Assembly (NCBI GenBank): GCA_021780075.1 | Contig: JAJXZL010000035.1 | Coordinates: 1-64,000, forward strand | Direction: 5' to 3' | Length of the DNA: 64,000 bases | From: Acidobacteriota bacterium | GTDB taxonomy: Bacteria > Acidobacteriota > Terriglobia > Terriglobales > Acidobacteriaceae | Shown: positions 38,123 through 46,301 of the stretch, piece after piece | How the letters are laid out: every line of letters begins with the position of its first letter | Position numbering within the stretch: position 1 is the stretch's first letter | The notes under the pieces: generated by a model | What the model saw: only the letters and a program-made list of their open reading frames with translations | Database searches by the model: none | What the model was told of the DNA's origin: nothing | Position numbers and translations under genes: made by a program

Positions 38123-39301
38123 TTAGTAACTCCCTATCTGTTCGATGTAGCCCTTGAAATTTCGTTTCATTTCCAGCGCCGAATCGCCGCCAAATTTCTG
38201 CTGAGCCAGCCCGGCGACAGTCAGCGCCACCATGGCTTCTGCGGCCACGCCCGCCGCGGGCACCACGCAGATGTCGCTGCGCTCATAGCTTGCGCTGGTC
38301 GCCTCGCGCGTATCAAAGCGCACGCTCTCCAGCGGCCTGCGCAGCGTGGAGATGGGCTTCAGGTAGCCGCGCACCACAATGTCCTCGCCGTTGGAGACGC
38401 CGCCCTCGATGCCGCCGGCATTATTCTGCTCGCGGGTAAAGCGCGTCGGCCTGCCCGTGTCCTGGCTGGAGTAGTGGATGGGGTCATGCACCGTCGAGCC
38501 AAAGGACTCCGCCGCCACCACGCCCCGGCCAATCTCCACCGCCTTCACCGCCTGCAGGCTCATCACGCTCCAGGCCAGCAGCCCGTCCAGCCGCTCGTCC
38601 CAGTTGGCATAGGTGCCCAGGCCGGCCGGAACGCCATGCACCACCACCTCAAACACCCCGCCCACCGTGTCGCCGGTGCGCGAGGCATGCTCCACCTCTT
38701 CCTTCATGTGCGCTTCGGTGGCCGGGTCCACGCAGCTCAGCAGCACCTCATCCTTGGCGCAGATGGCGGTAATCTCCTCCCACGTCGCGGCGCGCTCCAG
38801 CTCCACGCGGCCCACGCGGATCACGTGGCTCGCAATCTCGATGCCCAGCTCCCGCAGCATCAGCTTGGCAAAGGCTCCCGCTGCCACGCGCGAGGTGGAC
38901 TCACGCGCCGACGCACGCTCCAGCACGTACCGCGCGTCAGGGAAGTTGTACTTCAGCGCGCCCGCCAGGTCCGCATGGCCCGGCCTGGGCGAGGCCACCG
39001 CCTGGTGCTTCGCGGGGTCGCCCGCCTCCACCGGCAGCTTCTCTTCCCAGTTCTTCCAGTCGCGGTTGATGATCTCAATGGCGACCGGCGCGCCGATGGT
39101 CTTGCCATGCCGCACGCCGCTCAGCACATGGGCTTTATCGGTCTCAATCTTCATGCGGCCGCCGCGCCCATAGCCCTGCTGGCGCCGCCACAGCTCGCGG
39201 TTCACAAAGTTCAGGTCAACGGGCACGCCGGCCGGCAGTCCCTGGACCAGCGCGATCAGTGCCTCTCCGTGCGACTCCCCGGCAGTTGAAAAACGAATCA
39301 T
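38123..39301 (-). CDS. aroC: Chorismate synthase
   Basis: AroC makes chorismate from EPSP using reduced FMN, the last shared shikimate step. The 392-residue protein opens 'MIRFSTAGESHGEAL', has 'RQQGYGRGGRMKIE', 'SGVRHGKTIGAPV', 'RPGHADLAGALKYN' and 'ARESTSRVAAGAFAK', and ends in the conserved arginine region. The Met of 'MIRFS' is the family start; a longer reading adds nine residues. The start codon and about 60 bp upstream are duplicated, with divergence, at about 44272-44396. Confidence 0.96.
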   Translation of the reverse strand: MIRFSTAGESHGEALIALVQGLPAGVPVDLNFVNRELWRRQQGYGRGGRMKIETDKAHVLSGVRHGKTIGAPVAIEIINRDWKNWEEKLPVEAGDPAKHQAVASPRPGHADLAGALKYNFPDARYVLERASARESTSRVAAGAFAKLMLRELGIEIASHVIRVGRVELERAATWEEITAICAKDEVLLSCVDPATEAHMKEEVEHASRTGDTVGGVFEVVVHGVPAGLGTYANWDERLDGLLAWSVMSLQAVKAVEIGRGVVAAESFGSTVHDPIHYSSQDTGRPTRFTREQNNAGGIEGGVSNGEDIVVRGYLKPISTLRRPLESVRFDTREATSASYERSDICVVPAAGVAAEAMVALTVAGLAQQKFGGDSALEMKRNFKGYIEQIGSY

Positions 39302-39604
39302 ATTACTTTGATTGTAACGGTCTTGCACCTATCCGAACCAGAATGCCGAGCCCTGACGCAGTTTCCAGAGAGGTGACAAACAGCTTTCAACCCTGTCGAT
39401 GAGTGCCAAAGTCTGAAGTCAACAGACCGAATCGCTGGAGGCTAGCGGACTTTCCGGTAGTGATCTGAGCTGGCGGGTTATTGCGAGCTTCCATTCTCGG
39501 TCCCCAAAAGCGAGGGACCCGGGGCACCTTCATCGGAGTTGGGATTAGCAGGTGTGATCGAGGCCACCTGCCAATTGGTGCAAATCGTTGACATAAAGGA
39601 CCCA
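39302..39604. other. aroC upstream region
   Basis: About 300 bp. Its left ~65 bp are repeated near 44335-44396. Around 39499-39519 there is a small inverted repeat (GGTCCC and GGGACC, 9-nt spacing). The rest is of lower GC than the flanking genes. I see no gene. Confidence 0.5.
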
Positions 39605-40369
39605 TCAACCCTTGATAATCTCGGCGGATGTCTTTGCGACGATATCAGTGAAAACATCCTTCAAAACAGCACCCGCCTTCGCTAGGTTAATTTCAATTAA
39701 CTTCTTTTTCGCAGGCACGAGGTCGGCCTTCGGATCCGACATCACGTATTGCAGGTCATTCCAGAGTTCTTCCCGCTCCTCGTACGATAGCTTATCGTCA
39801 TGGTCGAGAAGGCGCCGCGCAGTCTGGAGCTTGTCTTCCATCCAGGGATACGCCCTGCCACATCCATGACAGAACAGTGGCAAAGCGTAGGCTCTAGGGT
39901 CCTGATATATGCGGCTTCCGCGGATCGGCTCCTTGCAATACTGACATTCATGAACACAAGAGGCACCGCACTTTGTGCAATGGGCTTTTGGGTCAAATGG
40001 CATCCCATCGCGGTGCTGAATGTGCCCCTGCTTGCAAATCTGTGCGCTGCAATGAATCCCGTCGGGATGTGTGCCATCCGCCGTGACCTGATTTTGCGAC
40101 TGTTCTTCCAGCGCTTCTTTCACCAGGTGGCGAGCTAGCTCTTTATATTCGTCCTGTTGTTCTTCGTTCTCAAAGTATCCGCCAGTTCGCCTAATTTTGA
40201 ATTGCGGCAACCAATCGATGGCTTTTCCTTTTGCTGCTGACGGAGCGTAGACACGAAACTCTCTCTGGTTGATATAAACCGTGGCAACCGATTGCAAGAG
40301 CGCGGCATTACCGGAACCGGTCAAATTGCTCTGATCTATAACAACCTTCGTATTCGGGTTGCTGATCAT
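39605..40369 (-). CDS. DUF2321-like zinc-ribbon protein
   Basis: A 254-residue cytoplasmic protein. The middle (about residues 110-170) has paired cysteines typical of DUF2321: 'CSAQICKQGHIQHRDG', 'HCTKCGASCVHECQYCKEPIRG' (shown as 'HCTKCGASC' and 'CQYCKEPIRG'), then 'LFCHGCGRAYPW', i.e. several CxxC knuckles that would bind zinc. The C-terminal ~80 residues are helical and charged. Base composition is lower in GC than its neighbours and it lies between aroC and an EVE-gene relic, so it looks acquired. AGAGG precedes the chosen ATG; a longer frame would run into the relic leader. Function unknown. Confidence 0.75.
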   Translation of the reverse strand: MISNPNTKVVIDQSNLTGSGNAALLQSVATVYINQREFRVYAPSAAKGKAIDWLPQFKIRRTGGYFENEEQQDEYKELARHLVKEALEEQSQNQVTADGTHPDGIHCSAQICKQGHIQHRDGMPFDPKAHCTKCGASCVHECQYCKEPIRGSRIYQDPRAYALPLFCHGCGRAYPWMEDKLQTARRLLDHDDKLSYEEREELWNDLQYVMSDPKADLVPAKKKLIEINLAKAGAVLKDVFTDIVAKTSAEIIKG

Positions 40370-40414
40370 ATGTGGAACCTCTGCCACCCATTCTAGCCAG
40401 CCCCCGCCACCCTC

Positions 40415-40616
40415 ACCGCCTCCCATTCCCGCCCCGCGCCTCGCGTATCCTGCCCCATGGCCTGCTTCCTCGTCAAGGCCGAGCCGACCTTCGCCAGCTC
40501 GCCCCTCATCATCGGCAGGCTTTCCGTCGTGCCTCGCACGCAGGAGCAGTGGGACTGGTTCGTCGATTAAGACTGAGCTGCCAGCCCCCCGTCGGCAATC
40601 CGCGCCGCCACCGCCC
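40415..40616 (+). pseudogene. EVE-domain gene relic with folP tail
   Basis: Positions 40415-40456 match the leader of the intact EVE gene. At 40457-40570 a 37-codon frame carries the EVE start ('MACFLVKAEP') joined directly to the EVE end ('TQEQWDWFVD'), with about 89 codons missing. The join lies at an imperfect repeat (CAAGACCGAGCC / CAAGGCCGAGCC in the intact gene). At 40577-40616 it continues with ~40 bp like the 3' end of folP. So it is a copy of the EVE-folP junction. The frame is intact, and expression as a micro-protein cannot be excluded. Confidence 0.85.
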
Positions 40617-40688
40617 CTGGCCGGGGTCTCCGCGATAGCCTGCCGTTACTTTCCGTTCCGTAGCTCGCGCATGACGATGGTCAAAGCC

Positions 40689-41207
40689 TCAGTTTCTTAT
40701 CTCGCCCTGCGCCAGCCCCTCAACAACCGCAGCAATCTTATCGAGGATCTGGTTCCAGCCCTCTAATTGACCGCTATTTTTCGCGCTCTCCATAGGTTCA
40801 TTTCCAATGAAGGTGAGTTTCGTCTGGCCGTTTCCCAAATCCTCAAAGAGAGTCACGTCGTACGCATTTTCGATGGCCTCATGTTCTATTCCGTATTGTG
40901 CAGGCTCAACCTTGTTTCCCTTCGAGTCGGAAAAGTACATCGAGGAGACGATCTTCTCGTGCAGAACAATCTCATGGTATTCACCGCCATTCCAGAACTC
41001 CTGCCCATCCGGCGTTCTCATGCAGCAGAGAAATTTCCCCCCAACGCGAAAATCCATCTGGCAAACGGGCGCAGTAAATCCCTTGGGCCCCCACCACTGC
41101 ATCACATATTCCGGGTCCGTCCACGCCTTCCAAACCAGTTCGCGTGGGGCATCAAAAACTCTGGTGACAACCATCCGCTCCGTCTCATTCGCCGTGTTTT
41201 TTGTCAT
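40689..41207 (-). CDS. AHSA1/SRPBCC-domain protein
   Basis: A 172-residue START-like (SRPBCC) protein of the AHSA1 type: 'TRVFDAPRELVWKAWTDPEYVMQWWGP' (quoted in part as 'APRELVWKAWTDPE'), 'DFRVGGKFLCCM', 'GGEYHEIV' and 'LEGWNQILDKI'. The fold forms a hydrophobic cavity; ligands are usually unknown. It overlaps the ArsR-type regulator by 23 bp, and a strong GAGGAGG lies inside the end of that gene, so the two are translated together. Confidence 0.88.
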   Translation of the reverse strand: MTKNTANETERMVVTRVFDAPRELVWKAWTDPEYVMQWWGPKGFTAPVCQMDFRVGGKFLCCMRTPDGQEFWNGGEYHEIVLHEKIVSSMYFSDSKGNKVEPAQYGIEHEAIENAYDVTLFEDLGNGQTKLTFIGNEPMESAKNSGQLEGWNQILDKIAAVVEGLAQGEIRN

Positions 41208-41535
41208 CTCTGACCTCCTCTTTTTTCATTCGATTCACAACCGCGTCCAGCTTGTCGAAACTCTCTTCCCAGAACTGGCGATAGCTGATCGCCCAGTCGC
41301 TGACCGTCTTGATCGCCTCCGGCCTGAGCGTGCAAATACTCTCTCGTCCATGCTTCGTCTTGATTACAATCCGCGCCCGCACCAGGCAGGCAATATGTTT
41401 TGAAATCATCTGCTGCGAGAGTGCAAACGGCTCCGTCAAGCCATGCACAGAGGCAGGCCCGCGGGAGAGCCTCTCGACCATCGCCCGCCGGGTTGGATCA
41501 GACAAAGCCGCAAATGTTGTACCTAACCTATCCAC
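41185..41535 (-). CDS. ArsR-family HTH regulator
   Basis: A 116-residue winged-helix repressor. 'TFAALSDPTRRAMVERLSRGP' (ArsR N-terminus, quoted in part as 'ALSDPTRRAMVERLS'), 'FALSQQMISKHIACLVRARIV' is the recognition helix region ('SQQMISKHI') and 'WEESFDKLDAVVNRMKKEE' is the C-terminal dimerisation helix. No metal-binding Cys pair is seen, so it belongs to the non-metal ArsR group that is often paired with an SRPBCC protein. It starts with GTG. Confidence 0.88.
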   Translation of the reverse strand: MDRLGTTFAALSDPTRRAMVERLSRGPASVHGLTEPFALSQQMISKHIACLVRARIVIKTKHGRESICTLRPEAIKTVSDWAISYRQFWEESFDKLDAVVNRMKKEEVRDDKKHGE

Positions 41536-41750
41536 AACCGTATGGTAGTGGATTTCCGCTGAATGTCAATGGCTATTCTCGCGACCGCGGTTTTCTGTTC
41601 CTGATCTCCGAACCCTGACGCTCGCGCGACCAGCGATCAATGGCTGCGCCACCTCGATAAATGAGTTGGCCTGCTATAGCCATTCGAGATTCGTGGCGCT
41701 AATGGGGAGAAACTAGCAGACGGAGCAAGGTGATTTCCAAGCTGCGCGGT

Positions 41751-42830
41751 TCACGTGAGCGCGGGATAGTTTGTGTAGCCGGCGGCGTCTCCTCCGTAGA
41801 AAGTCGTTGGGTCCGGTTCATTCAAAGCTGCTCCGAGCTGTAACCGCCTTGGCAGATCCGGGTTGGCCAGAAAGGCGCGTCCGTATGCGACAGCGTCGGC
41901 ATGTCCAGTACTTAAAGCACTCTCTCCCCTGAGCCCGTCATATCCGCCATTCACGACGTAGAGACTTTTCCAAAGTGTTCTCAGGTGAGCCGACGTGGCG
42001 AGATCCGCCTCGCTGCTTCCTTTGCTGTTCTGCGCCGTTTCAACGACGTGGAGGTAACCGAGCCCATAGCCGTTGAGTCTTTCAACCGCGACGGAGAAGG
42101 TTTCGACTGGGTTGTTGTCCGCCATATCGTTGAAGCTTCCCGTCGGGGAGATTCGAACACCCACATGCCCGCTGTCCCAGACTTCCAGGACGCGTTCAAC
42201 TGTTTCCATGAGCAAGCGGACTCGATTGGTCGTAACGCCTCCATACTCATCGGTTCGCCGATTCGATCCTGTTTTGAGAAATTGATCGATCAAGTATCCA
42301 TTTGCCGCATGAATCTCGACGCCGTCAAATCCTGCTTCTTTTGCGTTGCTGGCTGCGCGCCGATAGTCATCCAGGGTCTCGTTGATCCCGCTCGCTGTCA
42401 ACGCAACTGGCTCCGAAACAGGTGCCAGACCCGTGGCAATTAACGTCTGGCTATTGGCGCGGATTGCGGAGGGAGCTACTGGCTGTGCATTGTTCGGCAA
42501 CAAGGACGAATGAGAAATTCGGCCAACATGCCACAACTGAAGGAAGATTCGGCCTCCACTCTTATGAACGGATTCGACGATGCGGCTCCACGCTCGCACC
42601 TGTTCAGGCGAGTGGATCCCGGGAGTATCGATGTAGCCTTTGCCCATGGGCGAGATTTGCGTCGCCTCGGTCACGATAAGTCCAGCCGAAGCGCGTTGTG
42701 CGTAGTAGGTCGCCGCGAGTTCGCCCGGCACGCCATCGGCGTGTGCGCGGTTGCGCGTTAGGGGTGCCATGAATACACGATTTGCCAGGACCAAAGATCC
42801 AAGCCGGACGGGTTCGAAGAGGGTAGCCAT
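41751..42830 (-). CDS. Old yellow enzyme (NADH:flavin oxidoreductase)
   Basis: A 359-residue FMN TIM-barrel enzyme. 'RVFMAPLTRNRA' is the first FMN-binding strand; 'LQLWHVGRIS' follows; 'GFDGVEIHAANGYLIDQFL' carries the His/Asn pair that binds the substrate carbonyl (shown here as 'GVEIHAANGYL'); and 'RRTDEYGG' is conserved. These are features of NemA/OYE alkene reductases, which reduce electrophilic enones and nitro compounds. AGGAG precedes the chosen ATG; the longer frame adds 26 residues. It lies downstream of a DoxX-like gene and near a divergent TetR regulator. Confidence 0.94.
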   Translation of the reverse strand: MATLFEPVRLGSLVLANRVFMAPLTRNRAHADGVPGELAATYYAQRASAGLIVTEATQISPMGKGYIDTPGIHSPEQVRAWSRIVESVHKSGGRIFLQLWHVGRISHSSLLPNNAQPVAPSAIRANSQTLIATGLAPVSEPVALTASGINETLDDYRRAASNAKEAGFDGVEIHAANGYLIDQFLKTGSNRRTDEYGGVTTNRVRLLMETVERVLEVWDSGHVGVRISPTGSFNDMADNNPVETFSVAVERLNGYGLGYLHVVETAQNSKGSSEADLATSAHLRTLWKSLYVVNGGYDGLRGESALSTGHADAVAYGRAFLANPDLPRRLQLGAALNEPDPTTFYGGDAAGYTNYPALT

Positions 42831-42949
42831 TTCTATGCTCCTGTTGTTTTGCGACGCAGTGGATTGCTGCTGAGACGGCAGCGGTAAAGAACTCATCAGG
42901 TTCGACACGGCTGCTCCTTACTCTGACGGTATATGGTTGGGCTCGAACT

Positions 42950-43390
42950 CTATTGATTCGGCGTATCGCTAGCCTTCTCTGCCCGCCACTCCTTCCAAAC
43001 ACCGAAGGCAGTGAGCAATCCGAGGAGGAGAACGACAACGGGAATCACAGGTGGCTTGATACCCAGAGGAAGAACGCTGGCAGGCACCTCCGGCTGCAGG
43101 TGGACATAGATTGCCACGCCCATCTGGGTAAACAGGATCAAACACGCAAGCAGCAGGAGTTGATCTTTGCCTTTTGCGGTCAGCGATCGCCAAACCCATG
43201 GCAGTAAGAAGAGGGCGCCTGTAACCATTTCCGTCAGCTTGCCCGCAAGAATCGACTCGTGGGGCAGATGACTCTGTTGAATCTGGATTTCAAACCATCC
43301 GCGAAAGGGCTGGAAGAACTTGAGGAATCCGAACAGGAACATCAGGACTCCCAGGAGCAGCGATAAAGGTTTGATGAGGCGATGAGCCAT
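42950..43390 (-). CDS. DoxX-like membrane protein
   Basis: A 146-residue protein with four hydrophobic segments, beginning 'MAHRLIKPLSLLLG'. 'FGFLKFF' and 'LTEMVTGALFLL' resemble the DoxX-like family, which may couple quinone or thiol redox at the membrane. GGAGG lies just upstream of the ATG. It is the first gene of the minus-strand pair with the old yellow enzyme, and faces tetR across two palindromic operators. Confidence 0.78.
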   Translation of the reverse strand: MAHRLIKPLSLLLGVLMFLFGFLKFFQPFRGWFEIQIQQSHLPHESILAGKLTEMVTGALFLLPWVWRSLTAKGKDQLLLLACLILFTQMGVAIYVHLQPEVPASVLPLGIKPPVIPVVVLLLGLLTAFGVWKEWRAEKASDTPNQ

Positions 43391-43427
43391 TTTTCCTCCA
43401 CTTTCGAGATTCTGCAGTCTGTCGATC

Positions 43428-43447
43428 GAGACAGACAAGTCTGTCTC
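43428..43447. promoter_or_regulatory. Palindromic operator 1 (tetR / doxX intergenic)
   Basis: GAGACAGAC and GTCTGTCTC are a perfect 9-bp inverted repeat separated by AA. It lies 38 bp upstream of the doxX-like start, and is one of two copies of the same core (AGACAGAC-N2-GTCTGTCT) between the divergent genes. Confidence 0.75.
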
Positions 43448-43464
43448 TAATTCTTCATGAGTAT

Positions 43465-43482
43465 AGACAGACTGGTCTGTCT
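43465..43482. promoter_or_regulatory. Palindromic operator 2 (tetR promoter)
   Basis: AGACAGAC and GTCTGTCT, a perfect 8-bp inverted repeat separated by TG, ending 10 bp before the first possible tetR start. Binding here would block tetR itself, so autoregulation is likely. Confidence 0.75.
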
Positions 43483-43491
43483 TCTGTCAAG

Positions 43492-44073
43492 ATGGATCCG
43501 ATGAAATCACAAAAACAAGCCGATCCGCGGCAGAGAATTCTGGAGGTGGCCGACCGGCTCTTTTACGCGGAGGGAGTCCGCGCGACTGGCACCGAGAAGA
43601 TCATGTCCATCGCCGAAGTCGCCAAGGCGACGTTTTATCGGCATTTCGAAAGCAAGGATGCCCTCGTGCTCGCGTACCTCGAAAACCGCGATCAAGCTCT
43701 TTGGGACTATCTCTCTCAACCCATTCCCCCAAAGAATCTGCGCGAGGCTCTGATCAAATTCGAGCAAATGGCGAACCGGCCCGAAATAATCGGCTGCCCG
43801 TTCCTGCGGATCGCATCCGAATACCCGGATACGGCCCACCCGTTCCATCACCTGGCGATCCAACACCAAAACAAGATTCTCGACTATCTAACCGATCTGC
43901 TAGAGCCCTTCGCAATCGACAAAAGGGCGGCGGCTGCTGCGATACTGAGCGTCATCGATGGCGCCCTTTCTACGCGAATGGTCTATGGGACTTCGAAGGA
44001 GATTCCGATTCTCTTGCCCGCCGAGGCAGTACTCAAGAGCTTTCAGAGCGCGCGAACTCAACGCCGAAGTTGA
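43492..44073 (+). CDS. TetR-family regulator
   Basis: A 193-residue TetR regulator. The DNA-binding domain is 'RQRILEVADRLFYAEGVRATG' (first helices, quoted in part) and 'IAEVAKATFYRHFESKDALVLAYL', whose recognition helix is 'AKATFYRHF'. The ligand domain contains 'EIIGCPFLRIASEYPD' with a single Cys that could sense electrophiles. It is divergent from the doxX-like and old yellow enzyme genes and has two operators upstream; this suggests a NemR-like repressor. The start could be either ATG at 43492 or 43501. Confidence 0.93.
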   Translation: MDPMKSQKQADPRQRILEVADRLFYAEGVRATGTEKIMSIAEVAKATFYRHFESKDALVLAYLENRDQALWDYLSQPIPPKNLREALIKFEQMANRPEIIGCPFLRIASEYPDTAHPFHHLAIQHQNKILDYLTDLLEPFAIDKRAAAAAILSVIDGALSTRMVYGTSKEIPILLPAEAVLKSFQSARTQRRS

Positions 44074-44213
44074 TCGGCTGCCCTTATGGAAGCCTGATCT
44101 CCTCATAAGCGCGTTAGGCAGGAACGGTCTGGATTCATGCAATATCGCCAAGGCCACTCATCCATCGCTCAATGCAGATTGCAGGCTGACCGGCTCGCCA
44201 TCACCGCACCCAC

Positions 44214-44396
44214 ACCGCCTCCCGCTTCCACCCCGCGCCTCGTGTATCCTGCCCCATGGGCGGTCTGCAGGCCCTGGATCAGCGCGATCAACGCCTCTCC
44301 GTGGGACTCCCCGGCGGTTGAAAAACGAATCATATTGCTTTGATTGTAAAGGTCTTGCACTCATCCGAACCAGAATCCCGCGGCATCGCGCAGTTT
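44214..44396. pseudogene. EVE leader fused to aroC 5' relic
   Basis: 44214-44259 repeats the EVE-gene leader up to its ATG. It is joined directly to 44272-44396, which repeats the first ~60 bp of aroC (minus strand, start codon at 44333) and about 65 bp upstream of aroC, with about 15 mismatches in ~125 positions. The aroC piece keeps the start and encodes 'MIRFSTAGESHGEALIALI' before running into unrelated sequence. It lies in direct orientation relative to the intact aroC start. Confidence 0.85.
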
Positions 44397-44483
44397 CGGG
44401 ATAGCCGACCAAACGGTGAGAACGCGCACTTCCGTTTAGTTGTGATATAAAGTGCGCAATCCCTCACTGAAAGCGAACTACGA

Positions 44484-44873
44484 ATGATTCCAGATGAGCG
44501 ATTCGGCAGATGGGTATCAATTGGTGTTCCGGCAATTCTCATTGAGGGTGTTGCCGTCGTTCTTTTGGCGCACCTACGTTACCTGATCGCATTGCACGAT
44601 CTTTTGCCACCCGTAGCTCTTGGCCTGACAATACAGATTGGCTTTTTTGTCTGCGCATTTTGGGCGGGAAACTTGGCGCGGGAACAACGCAGATTTGGCC
44701 CGATCTCTTTCCTTGTTGGATTCAGCTTATGGGCCACGCTGCTAATCGTGATGCATTACGGTCCACTTTGGGGAATCCTTTCGCCCGTTGGAGATCCATT
44801 GAGCTTTACCATTTTCATGGCGTTTGTAACATTGGCTTCTTGGCTTGTCATGAGTAGACTGCGCCGCATCTAG
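44484..44873 (+). CDS. Small membrane protein, unknown
   Basis: A 129-residue protein with four hydrophobic segments ('VSIGVPAILIEGVAVVLLAH', 'ALGLTIQIGFFVCAFWAG', 'FLVGFSLWATLLIVMHYG' and 'FTIFMAFVTLASWLVM'). No family recognised. It lies between the EVE/aroC relic and the intact EVE gene, so it is probably accessory. GC is lower than the backbone genes. Confidence 0.6.
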   Translation: MIPDERFGRWVSIGVPAILIEGVAVVLLAHLRYLIALHDLLPPVALGLTIQIGFFVCAFWAGNLAREQRRFGPISFLVGFSLWATLLIVMHYGPLWGILSPVGDPLSFTIFMAFVTLASWLVMSRLRRI

Positions 44874-44997
44874 CAGCGCGAAAGTCAACCCATCCGTCCG
44901 GTCGTCGCAATAGATACCCCTGTTTCCATCGGTTGACCGTCAGCCGGAAATCGCAGCCTTCCCGCTCCCACCGCCACGCCTCGTGTATCCTGCCCCC

Positions 44998-45378
44998 ATG
45001 GCCTGCTTCCTCTTCAAGACCGAGCCCGACGTCTACTCCTTTGACGACTTCCTCCGCGACAAGGAAACCATCTGGGACGGCGTCACCAACCCCACGGCCG
45101 TCAAGCATTTACGCGAAATGAAAGCCGGCACGAAGTGGATCTTCTACCACACCGGCGACGAGCGCACCGCCATCGGCACTGGAACAGTCCTCAGCGTGGA
45201 TCCCACAGACCCCAAAGTCCCCATCGTGCGCGTCAAGGTTGGCAAGCGCCTCAAGCAGCCCAAAACGCTGGCCGCCATCAAGGCCGAGCCGATCTTCGCC
45301 AGCTCGCCCCTCATCATCATCGGCAGGTTGTCGGTTGTTCCGCTCACCCAGGAGCAGTGGGACTGGTTCCTGAGTTAG
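44998..45378 (+). CDS. EVE-domain protein
   Basis: A 126-residue EVE-fold (PUA-like) protein. 'MACFLFKTEPDVYSFDDF' starts the fold, then 'IWDGVTNPTAVKHLREM' and 'IFYHTGDERTAIGTG' which are the EVE signature for binding modified bases, and 'EPIFASSPLIIIGRLSVVPLT'. EVE proteins are thought to read modified cytosines or RNA bases. Its stop overlaps that of folP by 4 bp (convergent). Two decayed copies of its leader lie upstream. It is slightly short for an EVE domain (about 140-150). Confidence 0.9.
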   Translation: MACFLFKTEPDVYSFDDFLRDKETIWDGVTNPTAVKHLREMKAGTKWIFYHTGDERTAIGTGTVLSVDPTDPKVPIVRVKVGKRLKQPKTLAAIKAEPIFASSPLIIIGRLSVVPLTQEQWDWFLS

Positions 45379-46301
45379 GGGCGCGCCGCCAGCACCGCGT
45401 CAGCAATCCGTGCCGCCTCCACCGCCGCCCGCACGCTGTGCACCCGCACAATCGAGGCTCCTTGCAGAATCGCCGCCACCAGCGCAGCCACGCTGGCCGT
45501 CTCGCGCGCCTCCACCGGCGCATCCTGCCCGCCGTGCAGCGGAGCCAGCGTCCTGCCCAGAAATGACTTGCGCGACAGCCCCGCCAGCAGCGGCCGCCCC
45601 AGCGCCAGCAACTCCGCCTGCCGCGCCAGCAGGGCGTAATTCTCGTCGAGCCGCTTGCCGAATCCATAACCGGGGTCCAGCACAATGGCCTCCGCGCCAA
45701 CTCCCGCGGCGGCTGCCGTGCTCAGGCTGGCTGAGAGCCCCGCACGCACCTCGGCAAGCAGCTCATCCGGCTCAAGCTGCGGCTGCGCGCGCCACTCCTC
45801 GGGTCGCCCGCGCGTGTGCATCAGCACTACCCCGCAGCCAACCTCAGCACACACGGGAGCCAGTCCAAAGTCCCAGAAAAAACCGCTCACGTCGTTGATG
45901 ATTTCCGCGCCCGCCGCCAGAGCCGCCCGCGCCGTCGCCGCCTTGTACGTGTCCACGGAGACAATCGCCTCCGCCCGCGCCTTCAGAATGCCTTCCAGCA
46001 CCGGCAGCAGCCGCGCCTGCTCCTCCTCCGCGCTCACCGCCGGAGCCGCCGACGTGCCCGCCGCTCCGCCCGCCCGCGAGCCTGGCCGCGTGCTCTCCGC
46101 GCCCAGGTCCAGCAGGTCCGCTCCTTCGTCCAGCAGCGCCAGCGCGTGCGCCACAGCCGCAGCCGAGTCAAAAAAAAAACCGCCGTCGCTGAAGGAATCC
46201 GGCGTAATGTTCACCACGCCCATCACCAGCGTGCGCCGTCCCAGTTCCAGCGCGCGCGTGCGCAGCCTCCACGGGCAAATCATGCGAGTCAATGCGGTCA
46301 T
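45375..46301 (-). CDS. folP: Dihydropteroate synthase
   Basis: FolP joins p-aminobenzoate to the pterin for folate. The 308-residue TIM barrel shows 'MGVVNITPDSFSDGG', 'LDLGAESTRPGS', 'IVSVDTYKAATARAAL', 'IINDVSGF', 'VLMHTRGRPEEW', 'VLDPGYGFGK' and 'LAGLSRKSFLG'. An uninterrupted run of ten T (mRNA U) encodes the FFF after DGG at 46170-46179. The 3' end is copied in the EVE relic near 40577-40616. It is convergent with the EVE gene. Confidence 0.95.
   Translation of the reverse strand: MTALTRMICPWRLRTRALELGRRTLVMGVVNITPDSFSDGGFFFDSAAAVAHALALLDEGADLLDLGAESTRPGSRAGGAAGTSAAPAVSAEEEQARLLPVLEGILKARAEAIVSVDTYKAATARAALAAGAEIINDVSGFFWDFGLAPVCAEVGCGVVLMHTRGRPEEWRAQPQLEPDELLAEVRAGLSASLSTAAAAGVGAEAIVLDPGYGFGKRLDENYALLARQAELLALGRPLLAGLSRKSFLGRTLAPLHGGQDAPVEARETASVAALVAAILQGASIVRVHSVRAAVEAARIADAVLAARP

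Follow-up and report, generated by a model that had tools for sequence, protein, structure and literature searches.

The question raised by this locus is how pieces of the genes aroC, EVE and folP came to be repeated, with unrelated genes between them, within a few kilobases of contig JAJXZL010000035.1 of an Acidobacteriota bacterium (family Acidobacteriaceae, assembly GCA_021780075.1). The window, i.e., the whole stretch of DNA analyzed, comprised positions 1 to 64,000 of this contig. Its own genome (3.88 Mb, 53 contigs) is designated G000, and the other G and L labels refer to comparison genomes and loci. Between aroC and EVE, passenger-gene slots are probably stacked two deep, and the units, bounded by two kinds of inverted ends (alpha and beta), look like mobile cassettes lacking a transposase. 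The slots appear to belong to a family of such cassettes, small and transposon-like, that carry ordinary genes in soil Acidobacteria.

Self-comparison of the window yielded the following repeats of gene ends, all in direct orientation. The aroC start (39229-39380) recurred at 44261-44412 with 84% identity, and the EVE leader at 40408-40460 recurred at 44207-44259 (89%) and 44948-45000 (62%, ungapped), the second and third leader copies having 91.9% in common over 37 bp. The EVE/folP 3' piece at 40506-40623 matched 45314-45431 (77%), and the piece at 40473-40513 matched 45278-45318 (98%). When the EVE-folP junction (44948-45431) was used as a query against the whole G000 genome, matches were obtained at four places only, all in the window. 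The relic at 40408-40623 is an EVE gene with its middle deleted between two copies of TCAAGRCCGAGCC, continuing into the folP 3' end, and the leader at 44207-44259 ends at ATGG, fused to aroC at about codon 24. The self-comparison confirmed the three EVE leaders, second aroC start and second folP 3' end, all in the original orientation, that had been noticed in a preliminary description made from the sequence alone. These duplications of gene ends are genuine, and they outline stacked gene slots with the following features (R1 is a profile model of the ends, introduced below):

38123-39301, minus strand: aroC, intact, left flank (Pfam Chorismate_synt, E 1.1e-108).
39229-39380, plus strand: original aroC 5' end and upstream sequence, repeated at 44261-44412 (self-comparison, 84%).
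39354-39380, plus strand: degenerate alpha end beside aroC (R1 7.5 bits, E 0.4, not significant alone).
39605-40426, minus strand: cargo, DUF2321 gene with an uncertain start codon (Pfam DUF2321, E 2.3e-25); relatives in three others of the 80 genus genomes.
40408-40623, plus strand: relic of EVE leader, internally deleted EVE and folP 3' end (repeats; same relic in G034, contig C122).
40689-41535, minus strand: AHSA1 and ArsR gene pair, chimera of two G034 copies (Pfam; mosaic test).
41653-44152, no strand assigned: later insertion of OYE, a DoxX-like gene and TetR (missing between ArsR and EVE in G034, contig C100).
44178-44259, plus strand: degenerate beta end and EVE leader cut at ATGG (repeats; counterpart end G034:C100:20957-20992, E 0.0034; no R1 match in the window itself).
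44261-44412, plus strand: second copy of the aroC 5' end and upstream sequence (self-comparison; joint read from the sequence).
44382-44416, plus strand: alpha end (R1 25.6 bits; the sequence belongs to the R1 training set).
44484-44873, plus strand: cargo, small membrane protein gene (no Pfam family in the scans; in G000 only among the 80 genus genomes).
44931-44963, minus strand: degenerate beta end before EVE (R1 7.2 bits, E 0.52, not in training, not significant alone).
44998-45378, plus strand: EVE gene, intact (Pfam EVE, E 9.8e-26).
45375-46301, minus strand: folP, intact, right flank (Pfam Pterin_bind, E 1.6e-71).

Pfam matches were obtained for aroC, DUF2321, AHSA1, ArsR, OYE, TetR, EVE, and folP. 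Of the names earlier given to the interleaved genes, DoxX had no support, the Pfam scans returning no DoxX match and only a sub-threshold DUF3262 match.

The slot cargo of the related genomes G033 and G034 was flanked by inverted ends of about 35 bp. Among 11 slot-border pairings compared with shuffled sequences, those of G034 (28/38 positions, 1/1000 shuffles) and G033 (13/1000 shuffles) were significant. A 20-base pattern with up to three mismatches was found at 15 places in eight genomes (the reversed control gave two, both in G000), and a profile then recovered partner ends that had not been used to build it, at unrelated loci. Model R1, built from 17 ends including 44382-44416 of the window, had matches in 79 of the 80 genus genomes at the permissive threshold of E ≤ 0.5. 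With model R2, built from 55 ends, and E ≤ 0.05, ends were detected in 139 of 200 genomes sampled across the order and in 47 of 57 genera; the E-value, a rough guide, predicts about 10 genomes by chance. Part of the apparent backbone leaders is a cassette end, because the inverted ends bounding the G033 and G034 slots recur around other genes across the genus; this point had been missed in the preliminary description.

Of the units bounded by such ends, 45 were examined (0.55-4.7 kb), and three of these are aroC|EVE slots of relatives. Neighboring ends within 6 kb were convergent in 18 cases, on the same strand in one and divergent in none (107 ends, 11 genomes). One alpha and one beta end were assigned in 40 of 50 units, the other 10 being ambiguous and none having two ends alike; the consensus forms were derived partly from the same data as this count. 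In the 64-kb window, searched with R1 and filters off, three of the four best matches lay on slot borders. A conserved fold of the ends was considered and rejected, as the two predicted pairs showed no compensatory change. Viral carriers were searched for with one exact degenerate form of each end, with no matches. At L357, L359, L361, and L396, core-only ends were located beside another repeat (..GGGGCTGA..), perhaps forming a subfamily.

Target duplications were scored in two sets of units. The first comprised 29 units, four of them at one orthologous site and hence not all independent, with the inner pair of L337 as the 29th. The mean agreement at the predicted 8-bp register was 4.21 of 8, compared with 2.16 for mismatched pairs, and nine of the 29 units had six or more matching positions (0.7% of mismatched pairs). 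With small shifts allowed, four of the 29 were perfect, all on the same diagonal, versus 0.000 of mismatched pairs. In the second set of 22 units, the mean was 2.73 versus 1.98, and three units reached 7/8 at register, while 0.9% of mismatched pairs reached 6. The 8-bp target duplication is thus significant in the first set and weakly supported by the second.

The 45 units contained 62 open reading frames (ORFs) of at least 100 amino acids. The 64 ORFs scanned were 61 of these 62, two from a contig-edge unit, and the membrane protein gene of the window. Among the families listed were HigB toxin (two members), zeta toxin, ParD-like antitoxin, DUF4411, BamHI endonuclease, DNA methylase, MerR/SoxR, protein kinase, shikimate kinase, S41 peptidase, and permease; the PADLOC matches listed included PD-Lambda-2, PD-T4-6, and type II methyltransferase. 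These were the best 25 of 66, 96 and 112 families, with members unnamed, and all 20 families were listed for 43 of the 64 ORFs. Most of the other 21 were judged already named, and L295:5187-5960 and L361:2073-2819 had no family shown. No transposase was present among the families listed for the 64 scanned ORFs (in full for 43), and no integrase was seen in the scanned cargo. A non-exhaustive search, covering unpaired ends, ends at contig edges and genomes with fewer contigs, revealed no autonomous relative or cognate insertion sequence. One cassette carried a shikimate kinase gene (L344:1317-1910, G017:C128). A gene pair read as a BamHI-like endonuclease and a methylase was located beside a single cassette end (L373:695-2339, G022:C64).

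Apart from aroC|EVE, five orthologous sites had conserved flanks and largely unrelated interiors (L095 and L096 were left out of the comparison). Site B was found in G079, G082, G091, and G026 (flanks 85-99%; the G082 and G026 interiors shared 1268 of 3723 bp), site C in G026, G022, and G093, site D in G004 and G010 (flanks 93%; 24 of 1321 bp shared inside), site E in G100 and G019, and site F in G029 and G096. The end type on each side was compared at B, C, D, and F and was consistent at all four, with one of the four ends tied at B. L356/L138 and L358 (gaps to L389 and L273, flanks 74-89%) were not counted among the sites, the former because no ends were found in L138 and the latter because the L358 flank may be repetitive. 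Flank duplication accompanied cargo in G022, as a tandem array of flank pieces (81-86%), and in G096 (90% over 93 bp). Behind EVE in G103, a gene pair, read as a putative toxin-antitoxin, preceded 55 bp duplicated from the EVE 3' end (94.5%).

The site itself was followed through 72 aroC regions of the genus, the window included. In 44 of them, aroC and EVE (in G034, the EVE relic) were on one contig, and these form the basis of the counts; the rest were G004, G010, and G072, which keep just a relic of EVE, and 25 regions with no EVE in the stretch compared. The two genes were compactly spaced in 25 of the 44 (124-349 bp between them; G028 was included here, its apparent gap being a run of N in aroC), and in 19 of the 44 they were separated by 646 bp or more, with cargo that included TPR genes and several other kinds. 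Adjacency of aroC and EVE is the common state of the genus. When the 72 regions were each compared with themselves, repeats of aroC or EVE were detected only in G000, G033, and G103, those of G034 being on separate contigs. In G004, G010, and G072 (L104, L107, and L157), EVE has been relocated away from aroC, leaving an N-terminal relic behind, and in G007 (L118), it is inverted beside aroC with a TPR gene in between.

These counts bear out the preliminary view of an accessory-gene site that was used repeatedly and bears recombination scars; relatives did not share one full gene set lacking any empty site, and the same place was occupied by DUF2321 in G000, by a 173-aa ORF without a name in slot 1 of G034, and by a GNAT protein with a membrane ORF in G033. 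The accompanying proposal that aroC-EVE-folP was the ancestral order was not supported. The EVE-folP order is derived, because EVE adjoined folP only in G000, G033, and G034 (most genomes being fragmented); these three form a clade (Shimodaira-Hasegawa-like approximate likelihood ratio test 99). In the window, the EVE and folP stop codons overlap (45375-45378).

An ordinary integrase-free hotspot would likewise show conserved genes enclosing variable cargo in some genomes and an empty site in others. There, homologous recombination in the flanking core genes would bring in cargo, additive events would duplicate gene ends, and the inverted ends would be passively inherited intergenic sequence. 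Such hotspots have already been described, as far as the consulted part of PMC5635113 goes, and one here would account for differing cargo with conserved flanks, for horizontally acquired AHSA1-ArsR and for the missing mobility gene. The same inverted ends and target duplications at many unrelated sites speak against it, and we regard it as rather unlikely.

The history of the stack was traced in the closest relatives. G033 has the order aroC, GNAT gene, truncated aroC copy, membrane ORF, EVE, folP. In G034, an EVE-folP relic with the same deletion as in the window is followed by AHSA1-ArsR up to the contig end, and another AHSA1-ArsR precedes EVE-folP on a second contig. The AHSA1-ArsR pair of the window is a chimera of these two copies: the left part resembles copy 1 (43:6 informative sites) and the right part copy 2 (83:15), and none of 20,000 permutations was as extreme. 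The pair was 91-92% identical to those of the distant G016 and G015, whereas aroC was 79-81% identical, which suggests horizontal spread. Nine AHSA1-ArsR loci had no common flank longer than about 100 bp; a fixed-boundary element was rejected, there being no shared terminal sequence.

The OYE-DoxX-TetR genes are a later insertion: they are missing between ArsR and EVE in G034, where the empty site is visible, and GCCAC was seen by eye at both joints. Counterparts of these genes occur elsewhere, on a different contig of G034 (93%) and in G026 (88%). A 21-nt inverted repeat (90%) at 43429-43482, between the DoxX-like and TetR genes, is perhaps a TetR operator. Beside DUF2321, at 39487-39574, there is an interspersed repeat with a AAAAGCGAGGGACCCGGGGCACC core, in single copy in the window; it was dismissed as the cause of the site, since it matches many other loci in genus genomes. 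A plasmid origin was likewise dismissed: a search of 72,556 plasmid records, at the sensitivity of megablast, gave no match to 39229-45431.

Internal tandem duplication of aroC-EVE (and EVE-folP), followed by independent insertions in each copy and no homologous import, was also weighed. A tandem copy reaching from aroC codon ~24 to the start of EVE would account for the order at 44207-44412, and the array in G022 fits internal duplication as well. This would require unrelated genes to enter the same short interval of each copy. Relative to the original, codons 1-21 of the aroC copy show five synonymous differences and a single Val-to-Ile replacement, a pattern unlike long-term neutral decay, albeit over a short stretch, and the right halves of the two G034 AHSA1-ArsR copies have different nearest relatives (G016 for copy 1; the window, then G015, for copy 2). 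We judge this course of events improbable. Merging of variants of one locus by misassembly or from a strain mixture is very improbable: the G034 assembly does break into contigs within the region, but related, differing arrangements are present in three separate assemblies, and genomes of few contigs, G005 and G002 among them, also contain end pairs.

In the cassette reading, which we favor, a unit would usually hold one or two ordinary genes between inverted ends about 35 bp long, with a target duplication of 8 bp, and would presumably be moved in trans by an enzyme that the cassette, as far as seen, does not encode. Each slot would run from the aroC 5' end and an alpha end through cargo to a beta end and the EVE leader. 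In an ancestor of G000, G033, and G034, the first unit may have been inserted between the promoters of aroC and EVE, which are divergent, after which cargo would have been swapped in place while ends and flanks persisted. The joining of a homologous fragment that brought other cargo would have added an extra slot, leaving truncated copies of flanking gene ends. A circularized fragment (aroC codon ~24 to EVE start) and one crossover could have produced the joint at 44259/44261, as could tandem duplication of the same segment. In G000, recombination between two AHSA1-ArsR copies would have removed the intervening DNA, with OYE-DoxX-TetR inserted afterward. Circularization of linear DNA with a single crossover is reported for E. 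coli in the text available from PMC3240628, and merodiploids can arise by transformation according to the portion consulted of PMC3784515.

Several observations weigh against this reading. The other nine slot-border pairings, including those of the window, were not significant against shuffles, and the sole strong end of the window had itself trained R1, the other two having E 0.4 and 0.52; the membership of the window slot rests more on relatives than on its own ends. Other end orders were seen outside the 11 genomes (L354, L428, L433, L439, and L442), some being ends of abutting units. At register, 20 of the 29 first-set units were below 6/8, and only three of the 22 second-set units had at least 6, while one base off register the mean was 2.82 with two of the 22 at that level. 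Slot 2 of the window had no clear target duplication by eye, the orthologous-site comparison gave no precise empty site for other units (one spanning match was doubtful), and no moving enzyme was found in the scans. Import and internal tandem duplication would leave the same order. Finally, insertions also occur at a control junction, between folP and the gene that we take to be dacB (this name, like fmt and def, being our assumption from the sequences rather than from a family scan). Of 30 control loci, five had no dacB in the flank, and four of the remaining 25 exceeded 350 bp, which weakened the idea of aroC|EVE as a uniquely unstable junction.

A more far-reaching possibility is that alpha and beta are halves of a dedicated Acidobacteriaceae cassette-exchange system, in which a recombinase or transposase swaps cargo between fixed ends. 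We consider it unlikely; if true, it would provide reusable slots for a shared gene pool, with site and orientation kept and without an integron.

Among known systems, miniature inverted-repeat transposable elements (MITEs) and Tn3-derived inverted-repeat miniature elements (TIMEs) are likewise non-autonomous with inverted ends. The alpha/beta units differ in holding full genes and in their 8-bp target duplication, that of Tn3 being 5 bp. Integron gene cassettes resemble them in heterogeneous single genes, toxin-antitoxin pairs and stacking. Integron cassettes have one folded site each, in the same orientation, whereas the alpha/beta ends are paired and inverted, have no conserved fold, and are accompanied by no integrase in the scanned ORFs. 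The literature search, with most subscription papers beyond its reach, returned no such cassette family in Acidobacteria, where insertion sequences and transposases are reported in the available part of PMC5900883. The findings suggest that small gene cassettes of one class, carrying toxin-antitoxin genes, regulators and even shikimate kinase, are widespread in a soil lineage that is itself abundant and would be overlooked by transposase- or integrase-based annotation.

On the parts of the sources consulted, the nearest known class is the mobile insertion cassette (PMC3129680, PMC6542083). Like such cassettes, of which MIC231 (PMC6542083) is an example, the family has genes between terminal inverted repeats, no transposase among the families listed for its cargo, and target duplications by the 8-bp test. 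It differs in that a non-exhaustive search found no cognate insertion sequence, in that related species hold different cargo at one and the same site, and in that flank pieces are duplicated on stacking. With integrase-free core-gene hotspots, as described in the consulted part of PMC5635113, the units share variable cargo between conserved neighbors and no mobility gene, and they are set apart by defined inverted ends and target duplications. Fixed slots with changing cargo offer a direct route to study gene exchange in such hotspots, and also why flanking gene ends duplicate.

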